Shown piece after piece: positions 2-10,829 of a stretch of 64,000 bases of DNA. The DNA lies in NCBI GenBank assembly GCA_020851975.1, contig JADZBS010000025.1:1-64000 (forward strand). Direction: 5' to 3'. The stretch's first letter is position 1. Each line of letters starts with the position of its first letter. The position numbers and the translations under genes are program-made. The notes beneath the pieces are model-generated. The model was given only the letters and a program-made list of their open reading frames with translations, was not told the DNA's origin and made no database searches. The stretch comes from Gammaproteobacteria bacterium (GTDB lineage Bacteria; Pseudomonadota; Gammaproteobacteria; Steroidobacterales; GCA-2729495).

Positions 2-880
2 TTCCTGCAGCTCGCCTCGGCCCATCATCTGCTGGTCGAACCGGGCATCAGCTCGGAGTGGAAGATCTTCAACACCAGCTACGCCATGTACCTGGCGGTG
101 CTCGGCAGCATGATCCACGCACTCACCGTGCCCGGTACCATCGAGGCTGCGCAGCGCAAGCTCGGCTACAACAAGGGCATCTTCGAGTGGCTGCGCAAGG
201 CGCCCTGGGGCAACCCCGCCTTCTCGGGCGTGTTCATGTCGCTGGTCATGTTCGGCTTCCTCGGCGGCATCTCCGGCGTGGTGCTCGGCACCGAGCAGAT
301 CAACCTGATCATGCACAACACGCTGTACGTGCCCGGCCACTTCCACGCCACCGTGGTCACCGGCACCACGCTCACCTTCATGGCGGTGAGTTACCTGATC
401 GTCCCGCTCGTCCTGCAGCGCGAGGTGATGTTCCCCCGCATGGCGCAGTGGCAGCCGTACATCTTCGGCATCGGCGCCGCCGGCATTTCGCTGTTCATGA
501 TGGGCGCCGGGACGCTGGGTGTGCCGCGGCGTCACTGGGATGTCACCTTCGCCGATTCGCCCTTTGGCTTCGAGTTCCCGTCGGCTGCCTTCATGATGCT
601 GGCGCTGAACGGCATTTCTGCCATCCTGGCCGCGACTGGCGGACTCATGTACGTCGTCAACATGGTCGCCTCGGTATTCTTCGGCAGGAAGACGGGAGAC
701 GTGCCGCTCAAGGTGGCGGCTCCGGCACCGGGCAAGGTGGCAGCAGTCGGCGCCTATGGCAGCGCCGGCACCCTGAACATCCCCGGCACGATCACCCTGG
801 TCGGCATCTTCTTCGTCTCCTTCGTGCTCTATTACTACGTGAACTGGAAGTACCTCGCCGAAGTCTGGCCGCTGAGGTAG
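2..880 (+). CDS. Heme-copper cytochrome oxidase subunit I, C-terminal part (b(o/a)3-like), partial
   Basis: The reading frame is open from the window edge, so the start lies upstream; 292 residues are visible. This is the catalytic membrane subunit of a heme-copper terminal oxidase, which reduces O2 and pumps protons. An His-His pair (fragment residues 8-9, AHHLL) matches the CuB ligands. The motif VPGHFHATV (His113 and His115) matches the distal-heme and low-spin-heme ligands. Several membrane helices follow, with the last one just before the stop. The VPGHFH wording resembles family B (ba3/b(o/a)3) oxidases more than the A family. The SCO gene starts 4 bp after the stop, so the two are probably co-transcribed. 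The subfamily is the uncertain part. Confidence 0.85.
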   Translation, partial: FLQLASAHHLLVEPGISSEWKIFNTSYAMYLAVLGSMIHALTVPGTIEAAQRKLGYNKGIFEWLRKAPWGNPAFSGVFMSLVMFGFLGGISGVVLGTEQINLIMHNTLYVPGHFHATVVTGTTLTFMAVSYLIVPLVLQREVMFPRMAQWQPYIFGIGAAGISLFMMGAGTLGVPRRHWDVTFADSPFGFEFPSAAFMMLALNGISAILAATGGLMYVVNMVASVFFGRKTGDVPLKVAAPAPGKVAAVGAYGSAGTLNIPGTITLVGIFFVSFVLYYYVNWKYLAEVWPLR

Positions 881-884
881 GACC

Positions 885-1721
885 ATGAGTCCCGGCACGG
901 CGCGCAGGCAGGGCCTGAGCGGTGCCTGGCGCGCGCTGGTGCCGGTTCTGCTGTGGCTCGCCGCCAGCCCGGCCGCCGCGGCCGGGCCACTGGACCCCGA
1001 TGAATCGTTGCGCCGCAGCCAGGCTGCCATCGGCGGCGTGGTCGGAGATCACCGCTTCGTCGACCAGCAGGGCCGCGACCTGCGCCTGATGGCACTGCGC
1101 GGCCGTCCGGTGGTCCTGAGCTTCATCTACAGCAGCTGCGCCTTCGTCTGCCCGACCATCACCACGAGCCTCGCGCGCGTGACCGACATGGCCCGCGACA
1201 CCCTGGGTCCGGATCGCTTCACCGTCGTGACGGTCGGCTTCGACGTGCGCAACGACACCCCGGAGGCCATGCGCCGTTATGCCGCCGAGCGGGGCATCAC
1301 GGCTCCCGACTGGTTCTTCGCGAGTGGTGACCAGTCCACGGTGGACGCACTCGCGGCAGAGACCGGGTTCTCCTACGTGCCGCTCGGGGGCGGTTTCGAT
1401 CACATCACTCAGGTTACAATTCTCGACGCCGACGGACGGGTGTACCGGCAGGTATACGGCCCCGAGTTCGAGCCGCCGATGATCGTCGATCCTCTCAAGC
1501 GGCTTGCCCTGGGAATGGCCGTCGGCGACCGGCCGGTGGCCGACTTCCTGTCCCGAGTACGCCTGATATGCACGTCATACGACCCGAAAAGCGGCCGTTA
1601 CCGGTTCGACTATTCCCTGATTCTGGAGATTGCCATCGGAGTGAGCTGCGCGCTGGCCGCGCTCGCCTTCGTCGTGCACGCCTGGCGGCAGAACCGGGCA
1701 GCACGCACGGCCGGTCACTGA
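885..1721 (+). CDS. SCO1/SenC family copper chaperone
   Basis: A 278-residue thioredoxin-fold protein expected to deliver copper to the CuA site of cytochrome oxidase on the periplasmic side. An N-terminal hydrophobic signal or anchor ends in an Ala-rich stretch near residue 32. The CxxxC copper motif is SCAFVCP (Cys85, Cys89), and the distal ligand His173 lies in FDHITQ. A second hydrophobic segment (about residues 240-262) suggests a C-terminal membrane anchor, which is not usual for the family. The ATG at 885 is preceded by GAGG inside the end of the oxidase gene. Position directly after subunit I supports a role in oxidase assembly. Confidence 0.9.
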   Translation: MSPGTARRQGLSGAWRALVPVLLWLAASPAAAAGPLDPDESLRRSQAAIGGVVGDHRFVDQQGRDLRLMALRGRPVVLSFIYSSCAFVCPTITTSLARVTDMARDTLGPDRFTVVTVGFDVRNDTPEAMRRYAAERGITAPDWFFASGDQSTVDALAAETGFSYVPLGGGFDHITQVTILDADGRVYRQVYGPEFEPPMIVDPLKRLALGMAVGDRPVADFLSRVRLICTSYDPKSGRYRFDYSLILEIAIGVSCALAALAFVVHAWRQNRAARTAGH

Positions 1722-1752: not shown

Positions 1753-3831
1753 ATGAACTGGCTCAAGCGACCCCTGCGCGCCATCTTCGACCGGGTCGAG
1801 TCGATGCTCGACGCGGTCTTCGGTGCGCAACACAACCCGCTCGCCCAGCTCGGTGCCCTCGGCTGGTACCTGTTCTGGCTGATCACCGCGAGCGGCATCT
1901 ATCTCTTCGTTTTCTTCGACACGGGCGTCACGCAGGCGTACGAGTCGATCGAATCGATCTCCCGTGACCAATGGTGGGCTGGCGGGATCATGCGCAGCAT
2001 CCACCGCTATGCCTCCGACGCCCTGGTGCTGGTCGCCTTCGTGCACCTGTTGCGCGAGTTCGCCCTGGACCGCATGCGTGGCGTGCGCTGGTTCGCGTGG
2101 ATCACGGGGCTGCTGCTGGTGGGCTTCATCTACGTCTGCGGCATCACCGGCTACTGGATGGTCTGGGACCAGCTCGCCCAGTACGTGGCGCTCACCACCT
2201 CCCGCTGGCTCGACGTGATACCGATCTTCGCCGAGCCGATCTCGCGCAACTTCCTCAGCAATACGGAGCTGAGCGGGCGGTTTTTCACCCTGATGGTGTA
2301 CATCCACATCGCCGCTCCGCTGCTGATGCTGTTGTTCATGTGGGTGCACATCCAGCGCTACAACCACGCCAGGGTCAATCCGACACGCCCGCTGATGATC
2401 GCCACGACGGTCGCCTTCGTCGCGTTGTCCCTGCTGATGCCGGCCCTCAGCCAGGCACCGGCCAACCTCGACCAGCTTGCCGCCTCGGTCGGCCTCGACT
2501 GGTTCTACATTCCGCTCTATCCGCTCGTCGACACGCTCGGCGGAGTGACGCTCTGGGGCCTGGTCATCGGCATCTTCGTCGTGTTCGCGGCGCTGCCCTG
2601 GGTACCGCCCCTGCGCAGGGCACAGCCAGCCGTGGTCCACCTCGACAACTGCAACGGCTGCGCGCGTTGCTTCGCCGACTGCCCGTTCAGCGCCATCACG
2701 ATGCAGCCGCGCAGCGACGGCTCGGGCTTCACCGAGGAAGCGGTGGTTGACCCGGATCTCTGCGTGAGTTGCGGCATCTGCGTCGGCGCCTGCCCGACGG
2801 CCACGCCGTTCCGCCGTGCCACCGCACTGGTGCCCGGCATCGAGCTGCCGGAATCGAGCATCGCGGACCTTCGCGAACGCGTCGAGAAGCTGTGTGCGGG
2901 CGGGCCGGGTGGGCCGCCGCGCATTCTCGCCTTCCGGTGCGCGCACGGGGCGGCCGTCGAATCCGTGCCGGGTGCGGACGTCGCCGTCATCGACGTGCCC
3001 TGTACCGGCATGGTGCCGCCGTCGTTTCTCGACCTGATCGTGACCCGTCGGATGGCCGCGGGCGTGCTGCTGGCCGGGTGCCGCGAAAGCGAGTGCCATC
3101 AGCGGCTCGGCGTGCGCTGGACCGAGGCGCGTGTCGCGGCGGAACGCGATCCGTACCTGCGCGACCGCGTCCCGCGGGACCGCGTGGCGGTGTCCTGGGC
3201 AAGCCCGGCGCAGAAGTCCGTGCGTGCCCGGGCCATCCGGAATTTCGCCACGGCGCTGGCGGGGCTCGATCCGGCATTGCCACGCAGCGCAACGGGTTCG
3301 CACGCCCCCTGGCGCGATGCCGCCCGGCGGCTGGCCCGCCCGCTGCGCTGGGCGATCCAACTGCTGGTCGCCGTCGGGATCGGGACTCTCATCGTTCGGT
3401 ACTCGGATTCGCCGGCCATTACGCTGCGGGGTGCCGACGAGGCGATCGTGACGCTGAGCTTCAGCCATGCCGGGCGCCTCAAGGAAGAATGCCGCAAGCT
3501 GACGCCGGAGGAGATCGCCCGCCTGGAGCCGAACATGCGCCGGCCGCGCGACTGTCCGCGCGCACGCTGGCCGGTGTACGTCGAACTCGAGCTCAACGGG
3601 AAACTGGTCTACCGCGGCGAGCACCTGCCAGCCGGCATCTGGGACGACGGGCCGTCGAGTCTTTTCGAGCGTTTCGCCGTGCCTGCTGGCGCCCAACACC
3701 TCACCGCAAGACTGCGGGACAGCGAAAGGGACAGCGGCTTCGATTTCAGCAATACTGCCACCGTGGAGCTCGTGCCGGGCCAGAGTCTGGTCGTCGGCTT
3801 CCGGGCGTCCGACGGTTTCTCGTTCAGGTAG
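1753..3831 (+). CDS. Cytochrome b / 2x[4Fe-4S] ferredoxin / MvhD-like fusion membrane protein
   Basis: A 692-residue multidomain redox protein. Residues about 20-290 form a cytochrome b N-terminal-type domain with two His pairs at b-type spacing (His84/His98 and His185/His199), predicting two hemes. Next are two ferredoxin motifs, Cys300-303-306-310 and Cys337-340-343-347. Residues about 385-500 resemble the MvhD/hydrogenase iron-sulfur delta subunit (Cys in AFRCAHG, VPCTGM, AGCRESEC). A further membrane segment near 535 leads to a 140-residue C-terminal domain I do not recognise. The gene lies 31 bp after SCO and 16 bp before hemerythrin. A role in moving electrons between a soluble low-potential donor and the quinone or oxidase pool is inferred; no hydrogenase or heterodisulfide reductase genes are nearby. 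Confidence 0.85.
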   Translation: MNWLKRPLRAIFDRVESMLDAVFGAQHNPLAQLGALGWYLFWLITASGIYLFVFFDTGVTQAYESIESISRDQWWAGGIMRSIHRYASDALVLVAFVHLLREFALDRMRGVRWFAWITGLLLVGFIYVCGITGYWMVWDQLAQYVALTTSRWLDVIPIFAEPISRNFLSNTELSGRFFTLMVYIHIAAPLLMLLFMWVHIQRYNHARVNPTRPLMIATTVAFVALSLLMPALSQAPANLDQLAASVGLDWFYIPLYPLVDTLGGVTLWGLVIGIFVVFAALPWVPPLRRAQPAVVHLDNCNGCARCFADCPFSAITMQPRSDGSGFTEEAVVDPDLCVSCGICVGACPTATPFRRATALVPGIELPESSIADLRERVEKLCAGGPGGPPRILAFRCAHGAAVESVPGADVAVIDVPCTGMVPPSFLDLIVTRRMAAGVLLAGCRESECHQRLGVRWTEARVAAERDPYLRDRVPRDRVAVSWASPAQKSVRARAIRNFATALAGLDPALPRSATGSHAPWRDAARRLARPLRWAIQLLVAVGIGTLIVRYSDSPAITLRGADEAIVTLSFSHAGRLKEECRKLTPEEIARLEPNMRRPRDCPRARWPVYVELELNGKLVYRGEHLPAGIWDDGPSSLFERFAVPAGAQHLTARLRDSERDSGFDFSNTATVELVPGQSLVVGFRASDGFSFR

Positions 3832-4249: not shown

Positions 4250-4312
4250 GACGGGCGAAAGCGTCCGGTGGCGCGGGTAGCCACCCGGAACCGCGCTGGT
4301 ATAGTGACCGAC

Positions 4313-5557
4313 ATGTCGTTCGATATCGCCATTGCAGGTGCCGGCCCTGCCGGCCTGAGTCTCGCCCGCGCCCTCGCGCCACTCGACCTGAAGATTGCGC
4401 TGATCGAGCGGCTGCCGGCTGCACAGCTCGCCGACCCACCGTTCGACGGTCGCGAGATCGCCCTCACGCAGCTCAGTGCGAAGCTCATGCGCGAACTCGG
4501 CCTTTGGCAACGCATCGATGCTGCCGAGATCTCGCCGCTGCGCAGTGCCCGCGTGCTCAACGGCCCGTCCCCGTTCGCCATGGTGGTGGAGCCCGATCAG
4601 CAGCACGGGGAACTCGGCTTCCTGGTGCCCAACTACCTGATCCGTCGTGCCGCCTTCGATGTCGTCCGCGACCAGCCCGGCGTCACGCTCCTCGACGGGC
4701 GCAGCGTCCGCCGCATCCGCACGGATGCCGATGCGGCCGTGCTGACGCTCGACAACGGCGACACCATCACCGCACGACTCGCCATTGCTGCCGACAGCCG
4801 CTTCTCCGAGACCCGCCGCGCCATGGGCATCGGCGCGGACATGGTGGACTTCGGGCGCACCATGATGGTGTACCGCATGGACATCGAGCGACCCCATGAC
4901 AACGCCGCCTGGGAATGGTTCGGCTACGGACAGACGCTGGCGCTGCTGCCCCTCGCCGGCAACCGTGCCTCGGTGGTGCTGACACTGCCGCATCACCAGA
5001 TCGAGGCGCTGCTCGCGCTGAGCGACGAGCAATTCGATCGTGACATGGAACGGCGCTTCGACCATCGGCTCGGCGCCATGCACCTGGCGAGCACGCGGCA
5101 TCCGTATCCGCTGGTGGCCGTCTACGCCCGGCGCTTCACCGCCCGTCGCTTCGCCTGCGTCGGTGACGCCGCTGTCGGGATGCATCCCGTCACGGCACAC
5201 GGCTTCAATTTCGGCCTGCGCGGTGCTGTCACCCTTGCCCGCGGCATCGCCACCGCCCGCCAGCGGGGTACCGACTTCGCTGCAGCCGATGTCCTGGAAC
5301 CCTGGGAGCGCGAACACCGCATCGCGACCCGGCCGCTGTATCTCGCCACCAACGCCATCGCCCGGCTTTACTGCGACGATTCACCGCCAGCCCGCCTGGT
5401 GCGCAACCTGGCGTTGCGCACCGGCCAGCAACTCGGTCCCGTACGCCATGCCCTCACAGCCGCCGTGAGCGGGACCAGTGAACGGCCGCCGCTGCTGTCG
5501 CGGCTTGCCGGCACCGCCCTGGCGACATTGCGGCCGCGGCATCGCGAATCGGCCTGA
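4313..5557 (+). CDS. ubiM: UbiH/Coq6-family FAD monooxygenase, probably UbiM
   Basis: A 414-residue flavoprotein hydroxylase acting on a ring carbon of ubiquinone precursors. The dinucleotide-binding motif GAGPAG is at residues 8-13. A GDAAVGMHP...AHGFNFGLRGA stretch is the second FAD motif typical of the UbiH/UbiF/UbiM group. The ATG at 4313 is chosen because the fold begins immediately after it; an ATG-free upstream extension from 4268 adds only a non-conserved tail. The wording near residue 105 (FLVPNYLIRRA) resembles 5-demethoxyubiquinol hydroxylase UbiM, but I cannot separate it from UbiF/UbiH by eye. It follows the hemerythrin by 63 bp and converges on the TetR gene. Confidence 0.8.
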   Translation: MSFDIAIAGAGPAGLSLARALAPLDLKIALIERLPAAQLADPPFDGREIALTQLSAKLMRELGLWQRIDAAEISPLRSARVLNGPSPFAMVVEPDQQHGELGFLVPNYLIRRAAFDVVRDQPGVTLLDGRSVRRIRTDADAAVLTLDNGDTITARLAIAADSRFSETRRAMGIGADMVDFGRTMMVYRMDIERPHDNAAWEWFGYGQTLALLPLAGNRASVVLTLPHHQIEALLALSDEQFDRDMERRFDHRLGAMHLASTRHPYPLVAVYARRFTARRFACVGDAAVGMHPVTAHGFNFGLRGAVTLARGIATARQRGTDFAAADVLEPWEREHRIATRPLYLATNAIARLYCDDSPPARLVRNLALRTGQQLGPVRHALTAAVSGTSERPPLLSRLAGTALATLRPRHRESA

Positions 5558-6273: not shown

Positions 6274-7644
6274 TCAGTCGGGTGCAGGAACCTCGATGCG
6301 GTGCGCCGCGCCACGCGCGTCGATCGTCTCGAGAACGACCCGCCGGCGCCACACGCGGTGTACGTACTCGAGCACCCTGGTAGCCCGTCCGAGGTCGAGC
6401 CCGCGCCCGTCGCTGGCATGCTCGTGCACGAGGTGCAGCGTGCCGTCGTGGTCCAGGTTCCGGACGGCGACCGCGGGTGCACCGAAGTTGTACCTCGGCG
6501 CCAGGATGGCATCGCGCAGCGCGTTGATCTCCCGGTCCACCACCTCGACCGCACCGTCCCTGGACGCCTTGAAGCGGAACAGCTTCAGGTCTTCGGCGAG
6601 CTTCTCGGTGAGGTGGTTGCGAATGAAGCTGAAGTCATCGTCCTGGTTGCGGATCCTGAAGGCCTGCTCCAGCCCGTGCTCCTCGATGATGCTTTCCCAC
6701 AGGCAGAAACCGAGATGGTAGGGGTTGATGGCGAGCGAGGCCTGGCGGTCCGCCGCGTGCGGCCGCACCACGTCGGAATGCGTCTTGATGGCGTCCAGGT
6801 ACTCGTGCTGCGGCAGGAAGTCGGCCTCGCGCAGCAGCCGGGCATGCCAGTACGATGCCCAGCCCTCGTTCATGATCTGGCAGGCGAACACGGGATAGAA
6901 GTAGAACGACTCCTCCCGCACGGCGAGAAAGATGTCCCGCTCCCAGCCTTCGAGCTCCGGCGCATACTGGGCGATGAACCAGAGCAGGTCATGCTCCGGA
7001 TGCGGCGGGATGCTGGCGCGCTGGCGGGGCTCGTGGCTCGGCGCCGGCCGCTCGTCGCCGGGCAGCTGGTGGAAGCGTCGGCGGAAGGTGTCGTCCTCGA
7101 TCGTCCGGACCGCCGTGTATTCGGCATAGCGCTCGCGGCGCAGCCCACGGAAGACATCGATGTGCGCCTCGAGGGCGAGAGCCGCATCGAGGACACGCTC
7201 CACCCGTTCCTGGCCGTGCTCCTCCATGGCCGCCGCGATCTGCCGGGCATGTGAAGCCGCCTGGTCCACGATCCGGTAGCCACCCTCCTGCTGGCTGCGT
7301 CGGAACAGCTCGTTGTGCTTCGAGAAGTCCGCGTGCCCGAGCACGTGGGCCACCACCAGCGTGTTCTCCTGCAGGCTGTTGCCGCGGGCAAGGTATGCCC
7401 GCCCCGGGTTGCCCGGAAAAACCACTTCGAACAGCCGCGAGTGCCCCATGCGGTGCTGAATCAGCTGGTAGATGTAACGCACGCCGAACGACCAGTGCGG
7501 CATGCGCACCGGCAGGCCGTAGACGGCCACTTCCATCATGAAGCTGTCGGGCACCTCCTCGAACTGCACCGGGTAGAAGTCCAGCCCCTGCGCGCGGGCG
7601 AGCCCCTCGAGCTGCTGGCCGTATCTCTCGATCGCCGCGGCCAT
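6274..7644 (-). CDS. spoVR: SpoVR family protein
   Basis: A 456-residue protein of the SpoVR/YcgB family, near the usual length. Recognisable stretches include the N-terminal YPVQFEEVPDSFMMEVAVYGLPVRMPHW region and the central HSDVVRPHA region; each is typical of the family, whose biochemical role is unknown. In Proteobacteria the gene is regularly found with yeaH and yeaG, and here it is the last gene of that set, 10 bp after yeaH. The trio is associated in Enterobacteria with general stress and nitrogen starvation; that link is known from the family, not shown here. Confidence 0.93.
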   Translation of the reverse strand: MAAAIERYGQQLEGLARAQGLDFYPVQFEEVPDSFMMEVAVYGLPVRMPHWSFGVRYIYQLIQHRMGHSRLFEVVFPGNPGRAYLARGNSLQENTLVVAHVLGHADFSKHNELFRRSQQEGGYRIVDQAASHARQIAAAMEEHGQERVERVLDAALALEAHIDVFRGLRRERYAEYTAVRTIEDDTFRRRFHQLPGDERPAPSHEPRQRASIPPHPEHDLLWFIAQYAPELEGWERDIFLAVREESFYFYPVFACQIMNEGWASYWHARLLREADFLPQHEYLDAIKTHSDVVRPHAADRQASLAINPYHLGFCLWESIIEEHGLEQAFRIRNQDDDFSFIRNHLTEKLAEDLKLFRFKASRDGAVEVVDREINALRDAILAPRYNFGAPAVAVRNLDHDGTLHLVHEHASDGRGLDLGRATRVLEYVHRVWRRRVVLETIDARGAAHRIEVPAPD

Positions 7645-7654
7645 GGATGTGCCT

Positions 7655-8824
7655 TCAGCCGCCCCCGGCGGCGACCTGGTCCCTGAAGAAGGCGCGGATC
7701 GCGTCCCACACGGATTCGTTGGTGGTCAGCGCAAATGCCCCGCCAGGGCAGCTGTCGATGGCATCGCGAAATATCGCCGCCGTCTCGGTCTGCAGTGCCT
7801 GCTCTGCCGTGGCGGGTGTTTCCACGTAGCCGAGAAAGCTCGCGACGGATGCCATCTCCCCGAGCGCGGCCCGCGCCGGGCCATTGTCGTCCTTGAAGTT
7901 CTCGCCGTCGGATGCGTAGAAGAGGTAGATGTTGTAGCGCGACGGGTCGTAGCGCTGCGCGACGATCTCCCGCACCAGGTTGAAGGCCGTGGACGCCACC
8001 GTGCCGCCCGAGCCACGCACCTGGAAGAACTCTTCCTGCGGGAACTCCCATGCCTTGACCGTGTGGGCCACGAACACGAGCTCGAGATGCGTGTACTGGC
8101 GTCGCAGCCCCTCGACGACCCAGAAGAAGAATGTCTTGGCAAGCTGGCGATCGCGGTCGCGCATGCTCGAGGAAACGTCCATCGCGAAGAACACCACGGC
8201 TTGCGTGGCCGGCTGGCGCCGGCGCACCAGCTGGCGAAAGCGCAGGTCGTCATCGACGAAGGCCGGCCCCGCCGGATCCACCGAGCGACGCTTGAGGCTC
8301 TCCTTCAGGGAGCGGCGGCGGTCGAGTCGCGAGCGCACGCCGCGGCGGCTCCAGCCCTCGCGGGTGTAGTCATCGTCATGCGTCGCCCCGGACTTGGCCT
8401 GCAGGTTCGGCAGCTTCAGCTCCTCCCACAGCCAGTCGACGATATCGTCGATCTTGAGCTCCAGTACGAGCTGCACGCCGCCATCCTCGTTGCCGCCCTG
8501 CCCAGGCCCCTCCTCGCCCTGCTGCTGGCCGGGGCGCGCCAGCCTGTCCCCCGGTCCGACGTCCCCCTGGCCCGCACCGGTCATCTCGTCCGGGTCGCGC
8601 AGCCGGAAGCGGAAGTGCTCGAGAAAGCGCACCGGCACCTTGATGGTGCGGCCCTTCTCCCCGCCCAGGATGTCGGCGCTGGCCAGGACCTCCGGCAGCT
8701 TGTCGCGCACCGCCTGGCGCACCTTCTCGTTGTGGCGCAGCCAGTCCCGCGCACCGCGCGAGAACAGCTCGTACCAGTCCTGGTCGCCCTCGGCGCAACC
8801 GGAAAATGTGGACGGGATGTGCAT
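7655..8824 (-). CDS. yeaH: YeaH/YhbH family protein (DUF444)
   Basis: A 389-residue DUF444 protein with a C-terminal von Willebrand A-like region. The MIDAS-like run is FFAMDVSSSMRD near residue 218. The middle part is low-complexity and charged (Gly/Gln/Glu rich, residues about 90-115), as is common in this family. It lies between yeaG and spoVR on the same strand, 31 bp after yeaG and 10 bp before spoVR. YeaH is a presumed partner of the YeaG kinase. Start ATG at 8824. Confidence 0.93.
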   Translation of the reverse strand: MHIPSTFSGCAEGDQDWYELFSRGARDWLRHNEKVRQAVRDKLPEVLASADILGGEKGRTIKVPVRFLEHFRFRLRDPDEMTGAGQGDVGPGDRLARPGQQQGEEGPGQGGNEDGGVQLVLELKIDDIVDWLWEELKLPNLQAKSGATHDDDYTREGWSRRGVRSRLDRRRSLKESLKRRSVDPAGPAFVDDDLRFRQLVRRRQPATQAVVFFAMDVSSSMRDRDRQLAKTFFFWVVEGLRRQYTHLELVFVAHTVKAWEFPQEEFFQVRGSGGTVASTAFNLVREIVAQRYDPSRYNIYLFYASDGENFKDDNGPARAALGEMASVASFLGYVETPATAEQALQTETAAIFRDAIDSCPGGAFALTTNESVWDAIRAFFRDQVAAGGG

Positions 8825-8855
8825 CGAACCCCTGCCGCAGCCGCGCTGCCCGCCG

Positions 8856-10829
8856 CTACTCCTGCGACAGCAGCGTGGTGACGTAGTTCAGGGCCTCCCG
8901 CGCGCTGTACTCGTCGTAGCCGTACTCGACCACCAGACGTTGCTGAACCGCCGATATCTTCTGGCGCACTTCGTCATCCGGCCGTGCCGCCGAGGTCACG
9001 AGCCGCAACACGTCGCGACGCTCCTCGAACAGGTACTGCTCGATCGCCTCGTGCAGGCGCGTGTGACTGTCCAGCGTGAATTTCTCGCCGGCCTTGAAGG
9101 CCACCATGGCCTTGCGCACCACCTCCTGCCGGAACGACTGCTTGCCGGACTCGGAGATCTTGATCTTCTCCTCCACCTTGCGCAGGAAGCGCTCGTCCGC
9201 CGGGCGGGTCTCGCTGGTGATCGGGTCCTTGACCTCGCGCTGGTCCAGGGACGCCTCGACCTCGTCCAGGTACTTTTCGAGCAGCTGCTGGGCCTCGTCC
9301 TCGAAGGATGCGAACAGCGCCCGATGCACGTCTTCCTTGACCCAGCGGTTGTAGAAGTCCTTGCGGGCGATCACCAGGAAGTCGACCCATACCTTCTTCT
9401 GGTTGGCATCCATCCGCGCATCGCTCTGGATGGCGTCCTTGAGCGCGAGCAGCATCTCCATGCTCGTGAGACTGCGCCGGTCGCTGCGCGTGATGGCGTT
9501 GGAGATGGCATTGATCACGAACCGCGGACTGACGCCGGCCATGCCCTCCTCGGGACAGTCGCCGCGCAGCCGCTCAACCTCGTTGACCGAGAATCCCTCG
9601 ACATCCTCGCCGGCGTACAGGCGCAGCTTCTTCGGCAGGTCGAGCCCTTCCTTCTCCGGCTTCGTCAGGCGCGTGAGGATGGAGAACACCGCCGCCAGCT
9701 TCAGTGTGTGGGGATCGAGGTGCACCGCGCGAAAGGCCGGCGCATTCGACACCAGCTTGCGGTAGATGCGCGCCTCGTCCGGATACGACAGCGTATAGGG
9801 GACCTTCACGATCACCATGCGGTCCAGCAGCGCCTCGTTCTCCTTCTCCTGCAGGAACTTGTTGAACTCGGCGAGATTGGTGTGGGCGACGATGGTTTCG
9901 TCAAGATGAATGAGCGGGAAACGCGAGACCTTGACGTTCTTCTCCTGCGTGAGCGTCAGCAGCAGGTACAGGAACTCGCGCTTGACCTTGAGGATCTCGA
10001 TCATCTCGAGCATGCCGCGGCTCGCGGCATAGACGGCCCCGCTCCAGGACCAGGCGCGCGGGTCGCCCTCGTCGCCGATTTCAGCCACCTTGGAGAGGTC
10101 GACCGATCCGACGAGATCGGCGATGTCGGCCGTCGTCGGGTCGTGCGGCGCATAGGTCCCGATCCCGACGCGCGAGGCTTCCGAGAGAAACACGCGCTCG
10201 ACGGGAAACTTCATGAAGTCGCCGTGAAACTCGTCGTCGAGCCTGGCGCGGCTGTAGGGCGAGAGTTCGCCGGTGATGTCGACCCCGTAGGTCTCGCGGA
10301 ACCGCCCCCGCAGGCTCGCCGGCACCAGATTGAGTGGTGACTCGTGCAGTGGAGATCCCTGCAGGGCGTAGAGGGCGCCGGCGTCCGTGTGGCTGTACTC
10401 CTCCAGGCCGCGCTTCATCAGGATCACCGCGGAGGACTTGCCTCCGGACGGCGGGCCGAGCAGCAGCAGGAGCCTGCGGCCCACGTCCGAACCAGCGCTG
10501 GCGGCCTTGAAGTACTCGACGACGCGATCGAGCGCATCGTCGATGCCGTAGAGCTCGTTGGTGAACAGTTCCTTCGGGTTGCCCGTTGCGATCCCGGCCT
10601 GCGGGTCACGACGCTCGGCCCGGTACCACGACAACATGTCGTAGAGATACTGGTGACTGGAGCGGACGAATTGCTGCGAAGCGGATGGAAAGACATCGCG
10701 GAGGAAATCAGCGAAGCTGCCGCGCCAGCGGGTCGCCTTGTGGTGCGATGCAAAGCTCGCCAGCTCGTCCATGAAGCCGTGGTTGCGGCCCTGCGAAGCG
10801 TCGCGCCCGGAGTCAGTTACGCTCGTCAT
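8856..10829 (-). CDS. yeaG: PrkA/YeaG family serine protein kinase
   Basis: A 657-residue protein with an N-terminal AAA-type PrkA domain and a C-terminal kinase-like domain. The Walker A motif GPPSGGKSS is near residue 130. Length and order match YeaG/PrkA. The ATG at 10829 has a well-placed GAGGAG about 8 bp upstream. It is the first gene of the yeaG-yeaH-spoVR operon, with a 411-bp upstream gap that must hold the promoter. Family members phosphorylate proteins during starvation or stationary phase; the local signal is not visible in the sequence. Confidence 0.95.
   Translation of the reverse strand: MTSVTDSGRDASQGRNHGFMDELASFASHHKATRWRGSFADFLRDVFPSASQQFVRSSHQYLYDMLSWYRAERRDPQAGIATGNPKELFTNELYGIDDALDRVVEYFKAASAGSDVGRRLLLLLGPPSGGKSSAVILMKRGLEEYSHTDAGALYALQGSPLHESPLNLVPASLRGRFRETYGVDITGELSPYSRARLDDEFHGDFMKFPVERVFLSEASRVGIGTYAPHDPTTADIADLVGSVDLSKVAEIGDEGDPRAWSWSGAVYAASRGMLEMIEILKVKREFLYLLLTLTQEKNVKVSRFPLIHLDETIVAHTNLAEFNKFLQEKENEALLDRMVIVKVPYTLSYPDEARIYRKLVSNAPAFRAVHLDPHTLKLAAVFSILTRLTKPEKEGLDLPKKLRLYAGEDVEGFSVNEVERLRGDCPEEGMAGVSPRFVINAISNAITRSDRRSLTSMEMLLALKDAIQSDARMDANQKKVWVDFLVIARKDFYNRWVKEDVHRALFASFEDEAQQLLEKYLDEVEASLDQREVKDPITSETRPADERFLRKVEEKIKISESGKQSFRQEVVRKAMVAFKAGEKFTLDSHTRLHEAIEQYLFEERRDVLRLVTSAARPDDEVRQKISAVQQRLVVEYGYDEYSAREALNYVTTLLSQE

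Follow-up and report, generated by a model that had tools for sequence, protein, structure and literature searches.

A cytochrome b/iron-sulfur fusion protein encoded beside eNOR, and probably its dedicated redox partner

A long gene next to a heme-copper enzyme

At the start of contig JADZBS010000025.1, from a gammaproteobacterial genome, a long open reading frame lies close to the gene of a heme-copper enzyme. What is its product, and what would it do there? An earlier note on this DNA had described a cytochrome b, two ferredoxin clusters and an MvhD-like domain fused in one protein beside a terminal oxidase. We analysed the first 64,000 nucleotides of the contig (hereafter the window), where the genes concerned are the following:

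2-880, plus strand: heme-copper subunit I of eNOR type, C-terminal part (helix VII onward); COX1 Pfam match, contig starts inside the gene
885-1721, plus strand: SCO family copper chaperone with a CxxxC site; PF02630, E 8e-15, conserved neighbour in 67 loci
1753-3831, plus strand: fusion protein of cytochrome b, two [4Fe-4S] motifs, FlpD and a C-terminal domain; 692 aa
3848-4249, plus strand: bacteriohemerythrin, last gene of the apparent operon; NF033749, E 3.5e-22, conserved neighbour in 17 loci

The open reading frame is real, since conservation of the 692-aa protein rules out a chance or shadow frame, and an 850-aa frame overlying it on the minus strand is without support. It begins 31 nt past the SCO gene and ends 16 nt ahead of the hemerythrin gene, in agreement with the small gaps described previously. 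On the 3' side of the hemerythrin gene, the window encodes a UbiM-type ubiquinone hydroxylase (4268-5557; NF006593, 551 bits), and its minus strand at 6274-10829 resembles, by eye, a SpoVR/YeaH/PrkA cluster.

Domain architecture and predicted structure

The protein is made of these parts:

1786-2616, plus strand: cytochrome b core, residues 12-288, helices A-F, with His84/98 and His185/199; VIA alignment, conserved His
2497-2502, plus strand: Asp249-Trp250 in the helix E/F loop, assigned from its position to the place of the PEWY quinol site
2647-2802, plus strand: two 4Fe-4S ferredoxin motifs, residues 299-350; Fer4_7, conserved Cys
2920-3267, plus strand: MvhD/FlpD [2Fe-2S]-type domain with Cys396/417/443/448; FlpD, MvhD structure alignment
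3337-3408, plus strand: seventh membrane helix, residues 529-552, at the helix G position of bc1 cytochrome b; model and VIA alignment ranges
3409-3828, plus strand: C-terminal beta-sandwich domain, predicted periplasmic, with conserved His572, Cys580, Cys601 and Arg605; models, conservation

Pfam searches returned Cytochrome_B (PF00033; residues 33-200, E 1.6e-15, 57.9 bits against a cut-off of 27.2), Fer4_7 (residues 299-350, E 8e-11, above the curated cut-off) and FlpD (PF02662; residues 408-504, E 2e-10, 41.2 bits against 22.3). The two His pairs, two four-Cys motifs and MvhD-like region proposed earlier are thus all present, with the ligand positions right. The protein is a member of the cytochrome b superfamily, with the four-helix core and two bis-His heme pairs, and its FlpD region is an MvhD/FlpD domain with [2Fe-2S] cysteines: it has the profile match and four invariant Cys, and it aligns to the MvhD structures 9sw2_D and 5odc_D, where three MvhD cysteines match. 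Beyond residue 530 there are zero Pfam matches, and the last ~160 residues fit neither a Pfam nor a PHROG family and match none of the solved structures convincingly. The description of this end as membrane-anchored and of unknown kind therefore stands, as a transmembrane helix is followed by a domain without a family.

The AlphaFold model, built from 147 collected sequences, has a mean pLDDT of 94.9 and a pTM of 0.92. Residues 12-288 align with mycobacterial QcrB (9ftz_H) with a VIA Z of 23.6 (2.3 Å, 253 residues), and many VIA alignments run on to residue 558, opposite bc1 residues 343-344, which we take to be helix G. In the model, the fold is that of a bc1-type cytochrome b with helices A-F, and the last membrane helix appears to occupy the place of helix G. 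As the alignment to bc1 includes helix G, the Fe-S module between helices F and G lies on the cytoplasmic side and the part after the last helix in the periplasm; the charges of the loops agree with this topology. Hence, profile search and structure prediction, the two checks suggested at the outset, yield all the expected domains and a bc1-type cytochrome b with a cytoplasmic Fe-S module. Modelled alone, the C-terminal domain is a small beta-sandwich (pLDDT 95.5). A known identity for it was sought and rejected, the matches being to generic beta-sandwiches only (best VIA Z 9.2, 92 residues, 5% identity), and a Foldseek search with this domain gave nothing below E 0.001.

We collected homologues from 80 loci of named genomes and 30 loci of a class survey, one of which is the window's own. 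In 107 cytochrome b-FeS proteins, the heme ligands (His84/98/185/199), the cysteines of both ferredoxin motifs (Cys300/303/306/310 and Cys337/340/343/347) and those of the FlpD domain (Cys396/417/443/448) are 99-100% conserved. Asp249-Trp250 is kept in 98-100% of FeS- and FNR-type relatives; it stands at the loop expected for PEWY, of which the Glu and Tyr are not retained. His572, Cys580 and Cys601 are kept in 94-97% of 106 sequences. The conservation of His, Cys and Asp-Trp points to strong selection on the cofactor sites.

The heme-copper neighbour is of the eNOR type

The window's own helix VI lies off the contig, and we assigned subunit I to eNOR through its 92% identity to a complete homologue (L033) over residues 279-572. 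Helix VI of this homologue reads GHSSQQINV where oxygen reductases carry the cross-linked Tyr. Gln replaces the active-site Tyr in all 54 full-length relatives (motif GH[S/P/A]SQQ), and the CuB ligands His237/286/287 and heme ligands are kept in these. Gln at this position defines eNOR (PMC8756737), a group formerly named ba3-a1 in which the absence of the catalytic Tyr had been noted (PMC6431628, PMC8879329). The Gln for Tyr, the CuA subunit II and the SCO gene in the operon are all shared with this B-family-like heme-copper NO reductase (PMC8756737, PMC6431628); the closest solved structures to the neighbouring subunit I are ba3 oxidases. Judged from its sequence, the neighbour is an eNOR, a little-studied nitric oxide reductase. 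In what it cites on the family, PMC8879329 points to work reporting NO reductase activity.

A terminal oxygen reductase, as the earlier note had it, is rejected since the catalytic Tyr needed for O2 reduction is missing in all full-length relatives and replaced by the eNOR signature. The norSY-senC-orf1 cluster (sNOR of ammonia oxidisers) has a similar gene order and was also discarded, because the active site has the Gln of eNOR and not the Asn of sNOR (PMC8756737, Table A4). Finally, contig C150 of the same genome was considered as the source of the missing 5' end of subunit I and dismissed, as it holds a qNOR-type gene with zero overlap. This gene, with a WWLVHLWVEGFFEV motif, lies at the contig end (C150:16496-18029, or L119:8497-10029). 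The genome thus carries two NOR types. In about 40 relatives, eNOR is accompanied by a second COX1-fold gene of about 450-490 aa (for example L106:10015-11454 and L038:383-1753). It keeps His87, His234, His365 and His367; the His pair of helix VII is missing, so it probably lacks CuB.

The gene is linked to eNOR across distant clades

The eNOR subunit I was found in the stored flanks at 61 of the 78 gene loci, 16 others being cut by contig ends and one, the deltaproteobacterial L099, showing no eNOR within its 6 kb flanks. Where the flank was sufficient, the heme-copper enzyme and SCO adjoin the gene in 61/62 loci. The suggestion that homologues might always neighbour these two genes therefore holds, with the amendment that the enzyme is eNOR and not an oxidase. 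Gene and eNOR usually lie in one operon, with synteny across Pseudomonadota, deltaproteobacteria and archaea.

We then considered whole genomes. Among the 369 genomes of the class sample, the gene is present in 34, eNOR in 33 and both in 32 (either alone 3, neither 334); among the 398 of the phylum sample, the gene is present in 34, eNOR in 30 and both in 29 (either alone 6, neither 363), giving p-values of 1e-42 (Fisher) and 8e-38; these assume independent genomes, an assumption that related genomes violate. The lone case of eNOR without the gene in the class sample sits at a contig end. In the phylum sample, five genomes have the gene and no detected eNOR. These, together with L099 and a genome where gene and eNOR are about 16 kb apart (G157), would fit a quinone reductase of general use, linked to ferredoxin or flavin, whose place in the eNOR operon reflects only a shared regulation in denitrifying conditions. 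We consider this improbable: four of the five genomes are <85% complete and the last (G497) is broken into about 730 contigs, and the co-occurrence and synteny extend across the three groups named above. Hence, the cytochrome b-FeS protein is probably the dedicated redox partner of eNOR.

The entire operon, including the cytochrome b-FeS gene, is also found on a Defluviimonas plasmid (NZ_CP156080.1, L172), where it is annotated as hypothetical (subunit II), "cbb3-type oxidase subunit I", cyoE, SCO, "cytochrome b N-terminal domain-containing protein", hypothetical (the C-terminal gene) and hemerythrin. This location suggests that the eNOR operon may spread horizontally. In four genomes (G577:C85, G488:C102, G552:C64 and G628:C152) the cytochrome b-FeS gene occurs twice in tandem, which suggests a possible heterodimer.

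Fusion, fission and a paralogue with another electron entry

The fusion in one protein, as described previously, is correct for the window and specific to some lineages. Most relatives encode the C-terminal helix and domain in a gene of their own, which lies immediately downstream or with one gene in between. Fusions are seen in the lineage of the window, in a further lineage of the same class (L015), in deltaproteobacteria and in archaea, and a quick tree requires at least three to four changes between the fused and split states. Such recurrent fusion and fission suggests that the cytochrome b-FeS part and the C-terminal part act together.

Many of the same loci carry a paralogue in which the cytochrome b core is fused to a [2Fe-2S] ferredoxin and a FAD/NAD reductase (L106:11438-13393 and 37 relatives), a form undescribed in the open-access literature that we searched. 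In two loci (L057 and L092), the C-terminal gene comes after this paralogue instead of the FeS form. Since the C-terminal gene can follow either of them, the N-side module looks like an exchangeable unit of electron entry. The FAD/NAD reductase of the paralogue is a standard cytoplasmic entry, and we interpret the Fe-S/FlpD module accordingly, as another point where electrons would enter from the cytoplasm. The paralogue is thus our best clue to the direction of electron flow.

A putative electron-transfer module for eNOR

With moderate confidence, we propose that the 692-aa protein serves eNOR as a dedicated electron-transfer module spanning the membrane, in which a low-potential donor of the cytoplasm would supply electrons that reach quinone and/or eNOR by way of the hemes b. 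The carrier, possibly a ferredoxin or a flavoprotein, would donate electrons at the FlpD [2Fe-2S] site, from where they would travel over both [4Fe-4S] clusters to the inner b heme, continue to the outer one and exit at the Asp-Trp loop, in a quinone pocket facing the periplasm. They would then reach the CuA of eNOR, by the quinone pool or directly, in a flow that would depend on NO. The C-terminal helix would substitute for helix G of bc-type cytochrome b, and the periplasmic beta-domain may dock the module onto eNOR or its copper-site machinery. The previous idea of a membrane protein that could join a low-potential carrier to quinone is supported.

Several observations count in favour of this module: the conservation of cofactor ligands from Pseudomonadota to archaea, the CuA motif retained in eNOR subunit II (e.g. 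CNEFCGFGHHTM), and the presence of cd1-family genes in 32/35 positive genomes against 42/334 others (p 3e-22). The window's genome carries cd1 NirS-family genes itself. Counted against it are the presence in this protein of Val-Trp in place of the Pro-Trp of the cd1 quinol loop and the nature of the relatives, which are all predicted proteins, mostly from metagenome-assembled genomes. Furthermore, eNOR is reported to take electrons from cytochrome c in work by Hemp/Murali cited within PMC8879329, so it may not need a cytochrome b-FeS donor.

The loci also contain CyoE and often CtaA which, like SCO, are maturation factors, and their presence means that a role in assembly fits too. The main rival of the electron-transfer module is accordingly a reductase for the maturation or maintenance of eNOR. 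Much as CcoG serves cbb3 oxidase and NosR serves N2O reductase, it would bring cytoplasmic electrons across the membrane while CuA/CuB are assembled, there to reduce Cu(II), the dithiol of SCO or an intermediate of a cofactor. CcoG/FixG and NosR are likewise membrane proteins with two cytoplasmic [4Fe-4S] clusters that serve a copper-containing terminal reductase, and the periplasmic His572, Cys580 and Cys601 are possible metal or thiol ligands. They differ in lacking a b-type cytochrome core, whereas Pfam finds neither the FixG C-terminal domain nor an FMN-binding domain in the 692-aa protein. A full bc1-like cytochrome b with its Asp-Trp also exceeds the needs of copper reduction, and the NAD(P)H paralogue hints at electron entry at high flux. 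On balance, we regard this role as rather unlikely.

Comparison with known systems bears on a further reading. With bc1/b6f cytochrome b, the protein shares helices A-F, two bis-His b hemes, the position of the PEWY loop and a filled helix-G position, and it differs by the large Fe-S module inserted after helix F and before helix G and by the C-terminal beta-domain. With the C-terminal region of HdrA2 it shares the order Fer4-Fer4-FlpD (67.6 bits over HdrA2 571-772); unlike HdrA2/MvhD, it comes without the HdrA flavin part, hydrogenase or heterodisulfide reductase and is fused to a membrane cytochrome b. These two likenesses, including the PEWY-like Asp-Trp, could point to an NO-driven bifurcation of quinol, oxidised on the periplasmic side: one electron would feed eNOR/CuA, and its companion, rather than going back to quinone, would cross the hemes b and enter the cytoplasmic ferredoxin/FlpD part to make low-potential reductant. 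The NO/N2O couple is very oxidising and the overall reaction would be exergonic. Yet electrons would have to run uphill against the membrane potential and arrive at very low potentials, neither a Rieske protein nor a dedicated c-type cytochrome such as c1 is conserved in the flanks of about 80 loci, and the HdrA partner is absent. Indeed, the FlpD domain is the only one in the genome (92% complete), where a search for HdrA gave only local Fe-S or flavin matches, in line with the earlier remark that the MvhD-like domain lacks its usual partners. We find such bifurcation very doubtful. Lastly, the best NCBIfam match of the cytochrome b part is the ExtP b-type cytochrome (NF040969, E 4.6e-25), covering this part only with 88.6 bits, below the cut-off of 290.

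Novelty and implications

The open-access reports on eNOR that we consulted cover subunits I, II and SCO, and the cytochrome b-FeS protein is absent from them. We found no description of an eNOR-linked protein of this kind in the open-access literature searched, and its novelty is therefore provisional. A Chloroflexi ORF (RME88945.1) has been tabulated, uncommented, with cytochrome b6, Fe-S, FlpD and cytochrome c domains. The individual domains are known; as far as this literature goes, the arrangement and the constant link to eNOR are provisionally new.

The greenhouse gas N2O has a widespread source in eNOR, for which the usual annotation is cytochrome c oxidase. The cytochrome b-FeS gene would be a genomic marker separating eNOR from oxygen reductases. 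A co-inherited heme b/Fe-S partner would also make it testable how electrons are supplied to eNOR and whether its NO reduction conserves energy. More generally, the protein would connect a bc-type cytochrome b with redox carriers of the cytoplasm in a new manner.
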